From Prosthecobacter dejongeii (lineage in GTDB: Bacteria > Verrucomicrobiota > Verrucomicrobiia > Verrucomicrobiales > Verrucomicrobiaceae), in NCBI RefSeq assembly GCF_014203045.1, contig NZ_JACHIF010000007.1, positions 62,001-126,000 of the forward strand: 64,000 nt of DNA, given 5' to 3'. Below the pieces are notes generated by a model. It saw only the letters and a list, made by a program, of their open reading frames with translations, was not told the DNA's origin and made no database searches. Below, one piece after another: positions 46,678 through 53,724 of this stretch (position 1 is the first letter of the stretch; every line of letters starts with the position of its first letter). A program made the position numbers and the translations under genes.

Positions 46678-47250
46678 TCAGCCTCGAAGCTGAGTTGCAA
46701 GCCGCAGCAAAGCCAGCACGCTGACGCTGTCGCGAATGCGGCCATCCAAGGCCATCTGGATGGCTTCTGTCAAAGGCAGGCGCTTCACGGCGAGCTGCTC
46801 CGTCTCTTCCGGCTCCGCCTCGCCAAAGGTGAGATCACGGGCAACGAAGATGTCGCAGACCTCATTGGTCGTTGAATTCGAAAGCTGAAGATTCATCAGC
46901 AGCGGTTCGATGGTGGCGGCACGAATGCCTGTTTCCTCCAGGAGTTCACGCCGGGCGCATTCGGCGGGTTCTTCGCCGGGTGGGCAGCCGCCTTCGGGGA
47001 TCTCCCACTCATAACGTTCATGGCTATAGCGCCACTGGCCCACCAGCCAGGTGTTTCCTTCAGCATCCACTGGCACCACGCCAATGGCGCGATTTTTATA
47101 CTCTACCACGCCATAAATGCCGCGGCCACCGCTGGGGTTGATCACTTGGTCTTCACGCACACGAATCCAGGGATTCACATATCCCTCACGGCTGCTGAGT
47201 GTGGTCCAGGGATTGGTGGTTTCGATGGAGTCGGAAGTGGGTTGGTCCAT
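46678..47250 (-). CDS. Nudix hydrolase, ADP-ribose pyrophosphatase-like
   Basis: A 190-residue Nudix protein. The Nudix box 'GGCPPGEEPAECARRELLEETGI' fits G-x5-E-x7-REUxEExGU (shown as two parts: GGCPPGEE and RRELLEETG). A preceding 'WEIPEGG' and an Arg/Tyr-rich strand resemble ADP-ribose or nucleoside-diphosphate-sugar pyrophosphatases. Cytosolic, single domain. It follows the ClpP-fold gene, but a terminator between them makes it a separate unit. Confidence 0.92.
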   Translation of the reverse strand: MDQPTSDSIETTNPWTTLSSREGYVNPWIRVREDQVINPSGGRGIYGVVEYKNRAIGVVPVDAEGNTWLVGQWRYSHERYEWEIPEGGCPPGEEPAECARRELLEETGIRAATIEPLLMNLQLSNSTTNEVCDIFVARDLTFGEAEPEETEQLAVKRLPLTEAIQMALDGRIRDSVSVLALLRLATQLRG

Positions 47251-47321: not shown

Positions 47322-48710
47322 TTACTGAAGGCGGAAATAACCATCCGGATTATACATCCAGTAGGCATCGAGCGGGTTCAGGCGGGGCAAGACAGCGACA
47401 GGCTTGCCGCGTTCGTCGGAGCTTTCGACGACACCGTTGTCCAGGTGGCCGGGGGGCAGGATACGAATGGGCATGCCTGTCTGTGACTGGGCTGGCTGGG
47501 TGGTATCCGGATGGCGCAGCAGGGCAGTCTCTTCGATCTCTTCGACAATGGTGTCCACCCATTTCAATTTCTGGGCATTGTCAGCAAATTCATTCCAGTC
47601 ACCAGTGGATGATTTTTTGTACATCTTGGTGATGAATTCGTCGCGGGTAAGACCCATTTTTTGCGCCACGGGATCTGCCAGGCGCTTCCACCATTCTTCC
47701 AGTTCCTTCACGCTTTCGCGGTGCTGCGTCAGATTCCCCATGATGCCGGCGGAAAGCTGATGGTGCAGGATGATCGCATTCGGATACGCGAAGGATTTTT
47801 TCGATAGAGTGGTGATGCACGCGGCCATGCTGGCGGCAAAGGATTTAACCACCGTGTAAACCGGGGCCTTGGAACCGTGCATGGCCTTGATGATCTTATA
47901 GCCAGCCATCACGCTACCGCCGGGGCAGTCATCAATGACGATGAAGATCGGAGCTTCCTCGTCGCGATTGTTAAAGTAGGCGATTCGATCCGCCAGACTG
48001 TCAGCGGTCTTGGAGGTGATAACGCCGTTTAGGGCGATGGTGCGATCGGAAAGGATGAGTTTGTTGCCCTGCACGGGCTCTTTCAGGTAAGCCGGAGCTT
48101 TGCCTGCATAGGTGCGCGATTCGGTCTCCTTTTGCTGGAGTTCCATGGCGAGCGTGAGTGCGGAGGTCTTGCGCTTGATGGCGTTTTCTTCGCGGCGCAT
48201 GGCGTAGCCTTCGGTGTCCACCTCGTTCTTCGCGATGGAGGCCTCCATGCTGGTGCGCTCGCCTTTGCGGCGGAGTTCCATGATGTCGGCATAGTCCTTG
48301 TCTCGCTGCTCGGCCTCGGCCAGATCCGACTTGGCCTTCATCTCCTCCAGCTTGATCTGGATCTCGGCCAGGGCGCGTTTTCTGACCGCCAGTTTTTCAT
48401 CCAGCTTCGTCTGCTCCAGGGCCATCTGGGCAGCGATTCTTTCGCGCTCTGCCACCAGCTTGGCGGTTTCCGCCTTGATGGATTCCAGCGGATCGGGCTT
48501 GGCGGGTTCTGGTGTTTTTTCCGCGACTGAAATTTCAATTTTCTGGCCTGAGATGACTGCGGGCTTGCCGTCTTTCGCAGTAGTTTTTTCGTCCTTCGGT
48601 GCGGTGGGCTTTTCCTCCTTGGCCGCTGGCGGTTTCGGGGGAAGGGGATCACCCAGGGCGAGGCCCGTCAACAACAATGAAAAAAGGGCAGGGGTCGTGC
48701 ATTTCATCAC
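47322..48710 (-). CDS. Exported ClpP-fold serine protease with coiled coil
   Basis: A 462-residue protein with a signal peptide (residues 1-20), a Lys/Pro/Glu-rich linker (21-75) and a long coiled coil (about 75-200). A ClpP/crotonase-like domain follows (about 215-395). The domain keeps the ClpP blocks: 'IDDCPGGSVMAG' (oxyanion region), 'SFAASMAAC' with Ser294 as nucleophile, 'IILHHQLSAG' with His317, and 'GDWNEFADNAQKLKWVD' with Asp371, a complete-looking triad. Cytosolic ClpP has none of the extra parts, and no Clp ATPase is nearby. It likely works in the periplasm without an unfoldase; substrates unknown. A 67-residue Pro-rich tail follows. Confidence 0.85.
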   Translation of the reverse strand: MMKCTTPALFSLLLTGLALGDPLPPKPPAAKEEKPTAPKDEKTTAKDGKPAVISGQKIEISVAEKTPEPAKPDPLESIKAETAKLVAERERIAAQMALEQTKLDEKLAVRKRALAEIQIKLEEMKAKSDLAEAEQRDKDYADIMELRRKGERTSMEASIAKNEVDTEGYAMRREENAIKRKTSALTLAMELQQKETESRTYAGKAPAYLKEPVQGNKLILSDRTIALNGVITSKTADSLADRIAYFNNRDEEAPIFIVIDDCPGGSVMAGYKIIKAMHGSKAPVYTVVKSFAASMAACITTLSKKSFAYPNAIILHHQLSAGIMGNLTQHRESVKELEEWWKRLADPVAQKMGLTRDEFITKMYKKSSTGDWNEFADNAQKLKWVDTIVEEIEETALLRHPDTTQPAQSQTGMPIRILPPGHLDNGVVESSDERGKPVAVLPRLNPLDAYWMYNPDGYFRLQ

Positions 48711-48816: not shown

Positions 48817-49497
48817 TTAATTTACCTGGGCTCGGATGGCCTTCACCACTTCGGCTCCCAGGGCCTCCGATCCGGCAGGAGTGAAATGGACGTTGGCAGG
48901 CTGGATTTGCAGCTCCTTCATCCTTGGCTGGGCGAAGGCGTACAGATCGTTCACCGGGATACCGTTTTCCTTCATCACCCGTATGGCCGCTTCGTTGTAG
49001 CGGATGACGTCGGCATTGTCGCGATAGACCTTCATGGGTTCTGCGGGTGCTGGCGTGGTGGTGGCAAAGACGAGCTTGGCCCCAGTAGCCTTCAGTTTGC
49101 CGACGATTTCGCGGAGCTGCTTTTCATACACTTCCACAGTGGCCTGGGGCGGGTCGGTGGCCAGGTCGGAGGTGGCCTTGCCATCGGCTTTTACATGCTT
49201 GAGGTCGTGCAGGCCCCAGTTGAAATGGATCACGTTCCATTTGCCACCGTCAATCTGTAGCCAGCGGCCAATGTTGGCCACGCCCGAGTTGGTGCCGCCA
49301 CAGTTCTCAGCCTTGCCGTTTTTGGCCATGGGCCGCAGGACCGTCATCTCATCCGCCAACAGTTTTTGCACCACCGGGGTGTAGCCCATGGAGATAGAAT
49401 CGCCGAGAATGAGCACACGGGGCTTTTCAGCCGCATGAGCAGAGGTGAAAGCGAAGGCCGTCGTGGCCAGTAAAAAGAGAAAGCTGGTACGTTTCAT
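48817..49497 (-). CDS. Secreted SGNH/GDSL hydrolase
   Basis: A 226-residue exported esterase. Block I 'LILGDSISMGY' holds the nucleophile Ser, block II-III 'FNWGLHDLKHV' follows, and block V 'NVHFTPAGSEALG' holds the His. SGNH enzymes deacetylate polysaccharides, xylan or lipids; a role in polysaccharide breakdown fits the neighbouring sulfatases but is inference. The usual Asn of block III appears displaced (Gly-Leu-His-Asp), which is a small oddity. Confidence 0.88.
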   Translation of the reverse strand: MKRTSFLFLLATTAFAFTSAHAAEKPRVLILGDSISMGYTPVVQKLLADEMTVLRPMAKNGKAENCGGTNSGVANIGRWLQIDGGKWNVIHFNWGLHDLKHVKADGKATSDLATDPPQATVEVYEKQLREIVGKLKATGAKLVFATTTPAPAEPMKVYRDNADVIRYNEAAIRVMKENGIPVNDLYAFAQPRMKELQIQPANVHFTPAGSEALGAEVVKAIRAQVN

Positions 49498-49531: not shown

Positions 49532-50224
49532 TCAGCCCTTCTTCGCCGGGTCTGGGGCCACGGTGCTCAGCCACAGTCCCTCCGGGGTCACCTTCACCTG
49601 ACGGATGGCCTTCAGCACCGTGCCGATAGGTTCTACCTTGCGATAAGGGGCCACCCACTGCCAGATCTCCATGCCGGTGATGAATCCATCGGGCACTTCT
49701 TTGCCAGGCACTTTCACGTCCACCACTTTGGCATCCACGCCTTCTTCATGCACATGCACGTAGTAGGTGAGCTGGCCGATGAGATAGCGCTTTTTGTCTT
49801 CCCAGAATTTGATGTTGTTCAGCGGCAGGCAAACCTGGCTGGTGATGGCATCTTTGTCCGGCATAGTGCCTTCGATACGGATGAGATCCGCATAGCTGCC
49901 GTAGCCGGTGTCTGGGGCGATGCTGATGATGCCATTGAGGTCCGCGACCGTCAGGGATAGTTCCGTAGGCTGGCCATTTTTTGAGGCTTCGGCAAAGTCG
50001 CTCAACCGCTTTTCCAGGGCCGTGCGGGCTTCTGGAGTCAGCTCTACGGGCGGCAGTTTGACAGGGGCATCTACCGTGATTTTGGCGATTTCCTTGTCCT
50101 GGGTGAAAAGCGAGTAGGCGCTCCAGGCGATCATGCCGCCAAAGACCAGGGCGGCCATGATCATGATGGCGCAACCGTAAAAGGGATTGAAGGGGGCCGT
50201 GGGGACTTTTTGAATGCGGGACAT
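49532..50224 (-). CDS. Membrane-anchored protein of unknown function
   Basis: A 230-residue protein with one N-terminal transmembrane helix (about 14-38, 'CAIMIMAALVFGGMIAWSAY') and a periplasmic domain of mixed alpha/beta ('LPPVELTPEARTALEKRL', 'TADLNGIISIAPDTGYG'). No known motif. Its stop lies 34 bp upstream of the SGNH gene start on the same strand. Confidence 0.7.
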   Translation of the reverse strand: MSRIQKVPTAPFNPFYGCAIMIMAALVFGGMIAWSAYSLFTQDKEIAKITVDAPVKLPPVELTPEARTALEKRLSDFAEASKNGQPTELSLTVADLNGIISIAPDTGYGSYADLIRIEGTMPDKDAITSQVCLPLNNIKFWEDKKRYLIGQLTYYVHVHEEGVDAKVVDVKVPGKEVPDGFITGMEIWQWVAPYRKVEPIGTVLKAIRQVKVTPEGLWLSTVAPDPAKKG

Positions 50225-50495: not shown

Positions 50496-50660
50496 GCATT
50501 TCCTTACATGGGGCTCAGGCCGCAGGCCAGAGGATTTGTCTGGTCTGTTTCCGGGCGTTCTGTTTCAGTGGAGTAGCCCTGGGCTAGGCTTATTCGAATG
50601 CCTTGAAATGACCCGCCTGTGCCGACGTTCAATGGGCTGCCCAATTCCCCTCCAACCGAT

Positions 50661-52100
50661 ATGTCCAAACTCGCCGCCACTTTTTTGACGCAGATCGTCC
50701 TCGGCTTTGCCCTGGCCACCAGCAGCCTGTGCGCCGCCGAACGGCCTAATATCATCTGGATCATGGCAGATGACCTAGGCTATGGCGACTTAGGCTGCTT
50801 TGGCCAAAAAGTCATCACCACCCCGAATCTGGATCGCATGGCGAAAGAGGGGATGAAGTTCACCCACTTTTACGCAGGGGCCACGGTTTGTGCGCCTTCA
50901 CGCAGCGTGCTAATGACGGGGCTGCATCACGGACACACCCGAGTGCGCGGCAATTCCGGTAAAACCAATCCTGGTGCTCAGGCCCTCAAGGAAGGTGATG
51001 TAACCGTGGCGAAGGTGCTTCAGGAGGCAGGCTACAAGACCGCCCTCATCGGCAAATGGGGCCTGGGTGATGAAGGAGCTGCCGAGACGGGACTGCCACG
51101 CAAGCAGGGCTTTGACTACTTCTACGGCTACCTGGACCAGACCCACGCGCACAATCATTACCCTGATTATCTCTGGCGCAATGAGACCAAGGAGCCGCTG
51201 TCGAACATCGTCACCCCCCTAGGTGAAAACGGAGGTGGCTATGCCACCCAGCCTATTCATTTCTCAGACGATCTCTTTGCCGATGAGGCGCTGAAGTATG
51301 TGGAAGAAAACAAGGCCGCGCCTTTTTTCCTCTACTGGAGCATGGTCGTCCCTCACGCCAATAACGAGCGCACCCGCGAACTTAAGGATGGCGCTGAGGT
51401 GCCTGACTATGGACCCTATGAAGGCAAGGACTGGCCCAATCCCGACAAAGGCCAGGCGGCAATGATCTCCCGCTTGGACGGCTATGTGGGGCGAATGTTG
51501 GACCTGCTCAAGGCCCAGGGGCTAGCTGAAAAAACACTGGTCATTTTCACCAGCGACAATGGTCCCCATGATGAGAGCAATCACGACCTCGCCCGCTTCA
51601 ATCCCTCCGGCCCCTACACTGGCATCAAGAGAAGCCTCACCGATGGGGGCATTCGCGTCCCGCTCATCGCCTGGTGGCCGGGCAAAGTGAAGGCCGATGT
51701 GGAAACGGGCCATGTCGCCTCTTTTGCCGATTGGCTGGGCACAGCCGCTGACTTAGCAGGTGCCAAGGCACCGGAGAAGATCGATTCCATCAGCTTTAAG
51801 CCAACTTTGTTAGGCCTGGAAGAGCAGGCAAAGCATGAGTTTCTTTACTGGGAGTTTCATGAGGGCGGTTTTAAGCAGGCGGCCCTTTATCAGGGGCGCT
51901 GGAAGGGCATCCGCCAGGGTGGGCCAGAGGCCCCTATTATGCTCTACGATCAGCAAAACGATGTCGCAGAAACCACGAATGTGGCCAGGGAACATCCCGA
52001 GATTGCTGAGAAAATCAGCTCCTACTTGAAGACAGCCCGAACAGAATTGCCCGAGTGGGAACCTCGCTGGAAGGCTGACGGGAAGAAGAAAAAGAAGTGA
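50661..52100 (+). CDS. Secreted sulfatase, canonical Cys type (1 of 3)
   Basis: ATG 50661 (MSKLAATFLTQIV) gives 479 residues; signal peptide to about residue 25. Alkaline-phosphatase-fold S1 sulfatase: 'IMADDLGYGDLG' (Asp37/38 metal ligands) and 'TVCAPSRSVLMTG' where Cys77 would be converted to formylglycine. 'FTSDNGPHDE' is the second metal-site block. It hydrolyses a sulfate ester of a carbohydrate; the natural substrate is unknown. It starts the sulfatase row, 25 bp before the next one. The formylglycine maturase is not in this window. Confidence 0.93.
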   Translation: MSKLAATFLTQIVLGFALATSSLCAAERPNIIWIMADDLGYGDLGCFGQKVITTPNLDRMAKEGMKFTHFYAGATVCAPSRSVLMTGLHHGHTRVRGNSGKTNPGAQALKEGDVTVAKVLQEAGYKTALIGKWGLGDEGAAETGLPRKQGFDYFYGYLDQTHAHNHYPDYLWRNETKEPLSNIVTPLGENGGGYATQPIHFSDDLFADEALKYVEENKAAPFFLYWSMVVPHANNERTRELKDGAEVPDYGPYEGKDWPNPDKGQAAMISRLDGYVGRMLDLLKAQGLAEKTLVIFTSDNGPHDESNHDLARFNPSGPYTGIKRSLTDGGIRVPLIAWWPGKVKADVETGHVASFADWLGTAADLAGAKAPEKIDSISFKPTLLGLEEQAKHEFLYWEFHEGGFKQAALYQGRWKGIRQGGPEAPIMLYDQQNDVAETTNVAREHPEIAEKISSYLKTARTELPEWEPRWKADGKKKKK

Positions 52101-52125
52101 TCGTCCGCCATCAGTATTTCTCCCC

Positions 52126-53724
52126 ATGAAAGCTGTCTTCTCCCTGTTCTCTGCGGCTTTGTGGCTGCCTTTGGTTCTGCCTGCCGCCGAGGCAAAGCCG
52201 CCTAACATCATCTTCATTCTCGCCGATGATCTGGGCTATGGCGACATCGGGGCTTACAAAAAGCAGCCTTCCAAAATCCCCACACCGAATGTGGATCGCA
52301 TTGCCAAGGAGGGCATTCGTTTCACTGATGCTCATTCACCGGCCTCGGTCTGTTCACCCACCCGTTATGCCTTGATGACGGGGCGTTACGCCTGGAGGTC
52401 GAAGTTGCAGCAAGGTGTCGTGGCCCCCTGGGGCGCTCCTTTGCTCCAAGACGCGCAATATACTGTGGCTGAATTGCTGCGTGAGCATGGTTATACCACA
52501 GGGCTCATTGGCAAATGGCATCTGGGCATTCAGTGGCCGACGAAGGACGGCCAGCCTGCCGCTGCTGGTGAGGACAGGCTGAGCAATGTGGACTTCACCC
52601 AGCCTTTCAAAGGCGGTCCTTTGGACCACGGTTTTGATCATTATTTCGGTGTGGATGTTCCGAACTACCCTCCCTACTGCTTTTTGAAAAACGACCGTAC
52701 GGTGGGGATTCCTACACTGCCTGATACCGGGCGTGTGGATGGCTTTAATCGCCCTGGTCCCATGATGCCCGGATGGAAGCTGGTGGACATCCTGCCTGAA
52801 CTGAACCGCCAGGCCGTGAGCTTTGTGGAAACTTCCGCCAAAAGTGGCAAGCCCTTCTTTCTCTACTACGCGCTCACCTCACCCCATTATCCCGTCGTGC
52901 CCGCGAAGGAGTTTCAGGGCAAGACGACCGTGGGTGATTATGGCGACTTTGTTTTCCAGACGGACTGGTGCGTCGGCCAGATTCTTGAGGCTTTGGAGCG
53001 CGAAGGTATTGCCGACAATACTCTCGTCATCTTCACCAGTGACAATGGGCCGGAAGTCACTGGGGAGGTGAAGCCCGGCGTCTATGATCGTGTGCAACAA
53101 TACAAGCACCACAGCCTGGATGGTCTCCGCGGGGCTAAACGCGACCTCTGGGAAGCCGGGCACAGGGTGCCCTTCGTCGCCCGCTGGCCCAAAAAGATCG
53201 CCGCTGGCAGCGTGAGTGATGAAACCATCTGCCATGTGGATTTCATGAGCACCGCCGCAGCCATCGTAGGTGCTGAATATCCTGCCGATACCGCAGTGGA
53301 CAGCCACAACCTGCTATCCATTTTATGGAATGAAAAGCTCGGGCGGCCCGTGCGTGAAGCCACGGTTCATCACAGCGGCTCTGGCCGATTTGCCATCCGC
53401 AAAGGCGACTGGGTGCTCATCGCCCACATTATCGGAGATGACAACCGCCGCGCAGGAGAGCCAGAGTGGATGAAAAAGCAACGCGGCTACACCGCTCATG
53501 ATCAGCCTGGAGAACTCTACAATCTCAAAGATGACCTCATCGAGAAGAATAACCTCTATGCTTCCAAACCCGAGATTGTGACCGAACTGCGCACCCTGCT
53601 GGAAAAATACGTGGCCGAAGGCCGCTCCACACCAGGGCCTTCCCAGGCCAATGACGTGCCGGTGAGCATCAACAAACCTCTGCCAAAACAGCCTGGTAAA
53701 AAAGCCCAGGCCGCCCGCTCATGA
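52126..53724 (+). CDS. Secreted sulfatase, canonical Cys type (2 of 3)
   Basis: 532 residues with signal peptide (MKAVFSLFSAALWLPLVLPA). S1 sulfatase: 'ILADDLGYGDIG', formylglycine site 'SVCSPTRYALMTGRYAW' (Cys76), 'FTSDNGPEVTG'. Clusters with arylsulfatase A-type enzymes. The final TGA overlaps the ATG of the next sulfatase by four bases, showing translational coupling. Confidence 0.94.
   Translation: MKAVFSLFSAALWLPLVLPAAEAKPPNIIFILADDLGYGDIGAYKKQPSKIPTPNVDRIAKEGIRFTDAHSPASVCSPTRYALMTGRYAWRSKLQQGVVAPWGAPLLQDAQYTVAELLREHGYTTGLIGKWHLGIQWPTKDGQPAAAGEDRLSNVDFTQPFKGGPLDHGFDHYFGVDVPNYPPYCFLKNDRTVGIPTLPDTGRVDGFNRPGPMMPGWKLVDILPELNRQAVSFVETSAKSGKPFFLYYALTSPHYPVVPAKEFQGKTTVGDYGDFVFQTDWCVGQILEALEREGIADNTLVIFTSDNGPEVTGEVKPGVYDRVQQYKHHSLDGLRGAKRDLWEAGHRVPFVARWPKKIAAGSVSDETICHVDFMSTAAAIVGAEYPADTAVDSHNLLSILWNEKLGRPVREATVHHSGSGRFAIRKGDWVLIAHIIGDDNRRAGEPEWMKKQRGYTAHDQPGELYNLKDDLIEKNNLYASKPEIVTELRTLLEKYVAEGRSTPGPSQANDVPVSINKPLPKQPGKKAQAARS

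Follow-up and report, generated by a model that had tools for sequence, protein, structure and literature searches.

A likely exported ClpP-type protein of Prosthecobacter dejongeii with a long helical domain and altered AAA+-facing features

Among compartment proteases that depend on ATP, ClpP is the textbook case; it is under the control of AAA+ motors in the cytosol. In Prosthecobacter dejongeii, one gene within the analysed 64,000-nucleotide stretch of contig NZ_JACHIF010000007.1 (the window) encodes a ClpP-like domain behind a signal-like N-terminus, which raises the question of whether a ClpP-type active site could serve outside the cytoplasm, away from such motors. We consider it rather probable that the product is exported to the cell envelope and acts there as a ClpP-type serine peptidase, independently of AAA+ unfoldases.

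The open reading frame with its GTG (48708–48710) spans 47322–48710 on the minus strand and has 462 codons. An ATG lies directly 3' of the GTG and is the likely start of the gene, with the GTG as the alternative (Table 1). Residues are numbered on the protein P0001, with the GTG counted as 1. A scan of the locus for promoters and terminators returned counts near the level of shuffled sequence.

Table 1. Features of the protease gene, its product and the neighbouring genes.
Feature	Position	Strand	Basis and remarks
Gene for likely exported ClpP-type protein	47322..48707	minus	ORF list; 461 aa from ATG 48705–48707
Signal-peptide-like N-terminus MKCTTPALFSLLLTGLALG	48651..48707	minus	Crude hydropathy rule; possible signal peptidase I cleavage directly after
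Variable Pro/Lys/Ala-rich linker	48492..48650	minus	Alignment of members; pLDDT <50 in family-only model
Long charged helical region, residues ~74–201	48108..48491	minus	Two predicted helices, short break between
ClpP (peptidase S14-type) domain, residues ~218–394	47529..48059	minus	Pfam, phmmer, hhalign, model superposition
Ser294, nucleophile by alignment	47829..47831	minus	Invariant in 54/54 members
His317, catalytic base by alignment	47760..47762	minus	Invariant in 54/54 members
Asp371, third triad residue by MAFFT alignment	47598..47600	minus	52/54 members; hhalign differs
Gly370, at ClpP oligomerisation-sensor Arg position	47601..47603	minus	Gly in 44/44 + 10/10 further members
Conserved C-terminal tail motif LPRLNPLDAYWMYNPDGYFRLQ	47325..47390	minus	Alignment; beyond ClpP domain
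NUDIX hydrolase, downstream	46678..47250	minus	In 7/30 neighbourhoods; 8 loci in second listing
SGNH/GDSL hydrolase, signal-like start	48817..49497	minus	Between protease and P0002 genes; there in 7/30 neighbourhoods
P0002, 230 aa, upstream neighbour	49532..50224	minus	One membrane-spanning-like segment + probably extracytoplasmic domain

Family assignment, distribution and structure models

The initial annotation had claimed a ClpP-type domain, and this was confirmed by profile searches. Pfam CLP_protease matched residues 218–363 with 76.4 bits against a curated cut-off of 20.2 (E = 3.5e-21). The sole further Pfam matches at E ≤ 1 were NfeD1b_N (18.2 bits, cut-off 40) and SDH_protease (15.8 bits, cut-off 31.3), each below its cut-off. 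No crotonase family was named among the Pfam matches at this threshold; crotonase-type hydratases were the competing assignment given in the annotation. The NCBIfam models for ClpP (best 63.8 bits, cut-off 228) and SppA_dom (26.5 bits, cut-off 155.45) also scored below their cut-offs. In a phmmer search of the PDB, the best 60 of 106 matches were ClpPs throughout, and a profile comparison of the family with ClpP (hhalign) gave a probability of 99.0. The same 6.0 Mb genome also encodes an ordinary ClpP in a gene of its own, and the two proteins share 30% identity over the domain. The curated cut-offs support a ClpP-type protein and not a crotonase or an SppA/NfeD-type protein.

A search across genomes, as the annotation had proposed, recovered full-length relatives (E ≤ 1e-40) in at least 34 of the 286 genomes of the class, with at least 41 copies; both counts are lower bounds because at most five candidates per genome were scored. 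The next matches after these relatives were ClpP-domain matches with E-values of 2e-14 or weaker. A phylum sample, which overlaps that of the class, held a relative at E ≤ 1e-20 in 33 of 387 genomes. Within the order, the protease was present in 23 of 29 genomes outside genus g5 and in none of the 23 sampled g5 genomes. Six genomes (G210, G098, G251, G150, G183 and G256) carry two adjacent copies, and two non-adjacent copies were found in G139. The nearest named relatives came from Prosthecobacter and other Verrucomicrobiaceae.

Sequence comparisons were based on 44 members (ORFs of at least 200 aa, E ≤ 1e-20), to which ten were added later (six of the 16 added rows were duplicates); the alignments leave out G366 of family f88, G492 as one genome of family f102, and G256. 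In a tree of the 44 members, the families f1, f13 and f35 each formed a clade of their own and family f2 did not form a single one; the tree tool flagged long branches at the root of the f35 clade. Two contigs of 'Myxococcales' metagenome-assembled genomes (L040 and L041) carry members that group among Verrucomicrobia sequences, and therefore point to transfer or misbinning. A relative with 97% identity gave dN of 0.013–0.015, dS of 0.40–0.45 and dN/dS of about 0.03, indicating that the gene is under purifying selection. Since 54 relatives were checked and dN is low against dS, the observation is more than chance. Judged from its sequences, the family is a genuine branch within the ClpP superfamily and is conserved; we found no published description of it.

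Structure prediction of the ClpP domain, which the annotation had also proposed, returned a ClpP fold, with ClpPs present in the alignment of the model. An AlphaFold2 model built from the family alone (mean pLDDT 56.6) consisted of two long helices and a ClpP-like core. Its best Foldseek matches were ClpPs, superposed loosely (TMt ~0.5, rmsd ~9), and it was too weak past residue 309 for use at the active site. A model of the domain, for which 13 viral-contig ClpPs were added to the alignment, reached a pLDDT of 69.6 and a pTM of 0.63, with pLDDT below 50 at residues 114–119 and 162–170. It superposed on ClpP with Z-scores of 21.9–22.6 and rmsd of 1.8–2.5 over 164–169 residues (best 50 matches); because ClpPs were in its alignment, this is not independent evidence of the fold. 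The predicted Ser, His and Asp (model residues 90, 113 and 167, the last at pLDDT below 50) lie within the superposed stretch 15–189.

Predicted catalytic residues and the features that face AAA+ partners

A Ser294/His317/Asp371 triad had been read from the single sequence, and the quoted residues are correct in the P0001 numbering. Ser294 lies in FAASMAA, His317 in LHHQ and Asp371 in TGDW. Ser and His are invariant in all 44 aligned members and in the ten further ones, and the FAASMAA and LHHQ flanks are nearly invariant across the 44. Asp371 is found in 42 of the 44 and in each of the ten; the two exceptions, L042 and L020, carry Asn. A full-text search of open-licence literature found no paper on Asn in a ClpP1 triad. 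In the MAFFT alignment, Asp371 falls on the Asp of ClpP, with the same eight residues to a conserved Ala; hhalign places a five-residue insertion such that Asp371 misses it. As the two methods disagree, the assignment of Asp371 is less certain than those of Ser294 and His317.

The members were further compared with 14 ClpPs, comprising the genome's own cellular enzyme and 13 from viral contigs. For the latter, 45 of 80 loci were examined; seven contained stops or unknown residues and were discarded, and from the other 38 we retained 13 with less than 72% mutual identity; the 44 members were trimmed to start 20 residues before SDR. The axial-gate motif ER-YDI-SRL was present in all 14 ClpPs (with Leu for Ile in one) and in none of the 44 members. 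In the full-length member sequences it was not found upstream of the ClpP domain, and its one occurrence in 60 rows (duplicates included) lies downstream, near the Asp. Two aromatic residues, which we take to line the AAA+ docking pocket of ClpP, are likewise replaced. The Tyr of the -YIN- strand, present in 14/14 ClpPs, is Val in 42 members and Ile in two; the Phe of DTMQF, also in 14/14, is Gly in 27 members, Ser in nine, Ala in seven and Thr in one.

The features of ring assembly are altered as well. The sensor Arg before the catalytic Asp is conserved in 14/14 ClpPs and is Gly in every member, the ten further ones included, and the acidic residue that precedes it (Asp or Glu in 14/14 ClpPs) is Asp in four of the 44. 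The handle strand is retained in altered form, with NxT in 44/44 members and Gly in 39; NxT recurs in nine of the ten further members and one has NLR. In ClpP, the Asp/Glu–Arg pair is the oligomerisation sensor that helps to keep the active form, the handle and its QxT motif join the two rings, and N-terminal loops control the pore, as described in a review (PMC9035409). Because the sensor Arg has become Gly and QxT has become NxT, the protein would probably form a ring or oligomer unlike the ClpP tetradecamer.

Taken at the level of the alignments, the parts that face ClpX and ClpA in ClpP are gone and the catalytic parts kept. Independence from ClpX/ClpA, as suggested at first annotation, is made likely by the loss of the docking and gate features across 44 members compared with 14 ClpPs. 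Outside the cytoplasm an AAA+ partner would be lacking, and this would fit such a loss.

Signal-like N-terminus, helical region and C-terminal tail

The N-terminus, MKCTTPALFSLLLTGLALG followed by DP, looks like a signal peptide on inspection, and a crude rule agrees. This rule chooses the start codon with the most hydrophobic following stretch and is based on hydropathy, not on a trained predictor. Under it, all 44 members have a hydrophobic signal-like N-terminus; 42 combine a hydrophobic core with a positive n-region, 44 have an AXA-like site and none has a lipobox. A further hydrophobic 19-mer occurs in seven members and is in each case the segment around the catalytic Ser. As a control we used 153 neighbouring ORFs of at least 250 aa, which include some real exported proteins and some spurious ORFs. 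With start choice, 42/44 members and 79/153 control ORFs passed all criteria. Without it, the figures were 36/44 members (first ATG) and 45/153 controls (first start), eight members failing when the first ATG was taken. The ten further, non-duplicate members have signal-like starts as well. Export of the ClpP-type protein, as originally annotated, is thus likely on the sequence comparison, the rule being crude and lenient.

In G150 and G183, both of family f35, one copy of the tandem pair (L046, L047) carries a lipobox-like FAGC, recognised by eye, and the other has an ordinary signal-like start. The sequences suggest that the f35 tandem pairs may combine a lipid-anchored and a soluble subunit.

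The initial annotation had described a coiled coil of 120 residues. Two long helices are indeed predicted; heptad periodicity in this protein did not exceed that of shuffled sequence. The Lys/Glu/Ala-rich stretch is about 125 residues long, and the family-only AlphaFold2 model places helices at model residues 73–134 and 140–200. In 43 of 44 members a Pro-free run of 65–128 aa was found (median 125; 128 was the most examined). Heptad periodicity over residues 71–205 was matched or beaten by 1341 of 2000 shuffles, and a second test on this protein gave 73 of 100. Among 43 members in that test, the share of shuffles that reached the observed value was ≤5% in 8, ≤20% in 23 and >50% in 8. As the heptads here do not rise above shuffled sequence, we refer to a long domain of helices, which may form a hairpin, and not to a proven coiled coil. 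Self-assembly through a coiled coil, which the annotation had thought possible, gains no support from these heptads.

Beyond the ClpP domain, most members end in a tail with the consensus ~LPRLxPxDxYxxYNPDGYxR, which follows a variable linker. Its Asp448 is kept in 44/44 members, and the motif is looser in the f35 copies. The tail found no alignment to ClpP in the MAFFT comparison. It could have a docking role or a self-regulating or self-inhibitory one.

Neighbouring genes, known systems and alternative readings

The gene for P0002, upstream of the protease, encodes a candidate partner. The P0002 family has no Pfam family, and its weak Pfam and PDB matches were taken as chance; members from f2 have a second membrane-spanning-like segment. 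Both genes occur in 23 genomes of the order; in 16 of these, spread over five genera and two families, P0002 lies near the protease on the same strand. The protease and P0002 matches are less than 230 bases apart in 12 of these 16 cases (all f2) and about 0.8–1.0 kb apart in three cases of genus g1. Co-occurrence is uninformative, because P0002 is present in 29/29 genomes of the order outside g5 regardless of whether they have the protease (23/29). Adjacency is therefore the sole informative part of the link, and it could partly be inherited linkage, because an mnmA-like gene (recognised by eye) lies nearby in nine loci. P0002 also has a life of its own, as it occurs in 64 of the 286 genomes of the class, 41 of them without the protease.

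An obligate partnership was rejected: P0002 is missing (E ≤ 1e-4) from 11 of the 34 genomes with the protease and is present regardless of it. Next to the protease cluster, inspection by eye picked out a pair of sulfatase-like genes, one following the other (50619–53724, plus strand), and clusters of this type recur in 5 of 30 neighbourhoods.

The protein resembles ClpP in its predicted fold, in the order of Ser, His and Asp, in a PGG motif and in a handle strand with N/QxT. It differs from ClpP in its signal-like start, in the helical domain of about 125 residues that stands where ClpP has its N-terminal gate, in the loss of the docking aromatics and sensor Arg, and in the extra conserved tail. 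In the part available of a survey of serine proteases in prokaryotes from 2008, the S14 architectures are Clp alone and Clp–NfeD only (PMC2605481). Full-text searches of open-licence literature turned up no study of the present family or of any ClpP that is exported or periplasmic. COG3904 is a periplasmic ClpP-like family.

Under the reading that we favour, the signal peptide would be removed and the ClpP domain, presumably in the periplasm and without ATP, would then cleave peptides or unfolded proteins through Ser294, His317 and Asp371. The helical domain sits at the place of the ClpP axial gate and probably replaces it for access, assembly or both. Proteins of the envelope that are misfolded or undergo processing may be the substrates, and a functional link to P0002 is conceivable. 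We entertain, tentatively, a more specific form in which the protein builds an ATP-independent compartment in the envelope, with the helical domain taking over the choice and delivery of substrates from both gate and unfoldase and with tethering by P0002 or a lipoprotein paralogue.

A rather unlikely alternative is a membrane-linked peptidase of SppA/NfeD type, which would act on signal peptides or the tails of membrane proteins and dock through P0002 or the f35 lipid anchor. NfeD1b/PH1510-type proteases act at the membrane, and SppA is a membrane-anchored enzyme of the envelope with a Ser–Lys active site, as is general for S49 peptidases, which use a Ser–Lys dyad. SppA shares the ClpP-superfamily fold with our protein, and NfeD1b/PH1510-type systems share the pairing of a ClpP-type domain with a membrane protein from another gene. 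The weak NfeD1b_N and SDH_protease matches, the same-strand adjacency of P0002 and the lipobox-like copies in two tandem pairs would agree with this reading. However, by sequence the protein is closer to ClpP than to S49: a His occupies the position it has in ClpP, and the SppA_dom score is far from its cut-off. The distribution of P0002, absent from 11 of 34 protease genomes and present in 41 without the protease, also argues against this reading. In NfeD1b, the ClpP domain lies at the N-terminus and the partner is an SPFH protein (PMC2636767). The NfeD1b_N match here is below its cut-off and no Band_7 (SPFH) gene lies near the locus; the nearest on this contig is more than 90 kb distant, and others are on different contigs.

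It is unlikely that the protein is a catalytically silent ClpP-fold scaffold, forming an envelope ring or platform on which the long helices do the binding, spacing or anchoring. Such a role would agree with the two members that have Asn for Asp and with the lost sensor Arg, which in ClpP helps to keep the active form (PMC9035409), but a scaffold would have no need of a Ser and a His kept in 54/54 members within near-invariant flanks.

We regard it as very improbable that the protein is a ClpP paralogue that stays in the cytosol and has an unusual extension at its N-terminus, its signal-like start being an artefact of start choice. The GTG/ATG ambiguity, the ClpP family match and the leniency of the signal rule speak for it; against it stand the excess of members over controls that pass without start choice, the lipobox-like starts of two members, the missing ClpX-facing features and the separate, normal clpP.

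Descent from a phage head-maturation protease is the least credible reading, despite PHROGs head-maturation families matching the ClpP domain at 20.6–62.6 bits and partial phage matches of 25–35% identity among the best 15 listed, since 80% coverage was reached in 0 of 153 matching phage records and 0 of 72 plasmid records, a scan of viral contigs gave 93 stretches that fitted the pattern of the family alignment, none of them a relative, and export suits a capsid protease badly. Phage head-maturation proteases work without an AAA+ partner; the present protein differs from them in its signal-like start and in having no full-length phage relative. In tblastn searches for a phage or plasmid origin, matches were partial only, with 23–35% identity among the best 15 listed of each.

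The exported, unfoldase-independent peptidase thus remains our preferred reading of an active site that is conserved across several bacterial families. If the protein is exported, with its active site kept and its motor-facing features lost, it would show how a ClpP-type site is gated without ATP. If this is true, the family would bring a further proteolysis system to the little-known cell envelope of the Verrucomicrobiota.
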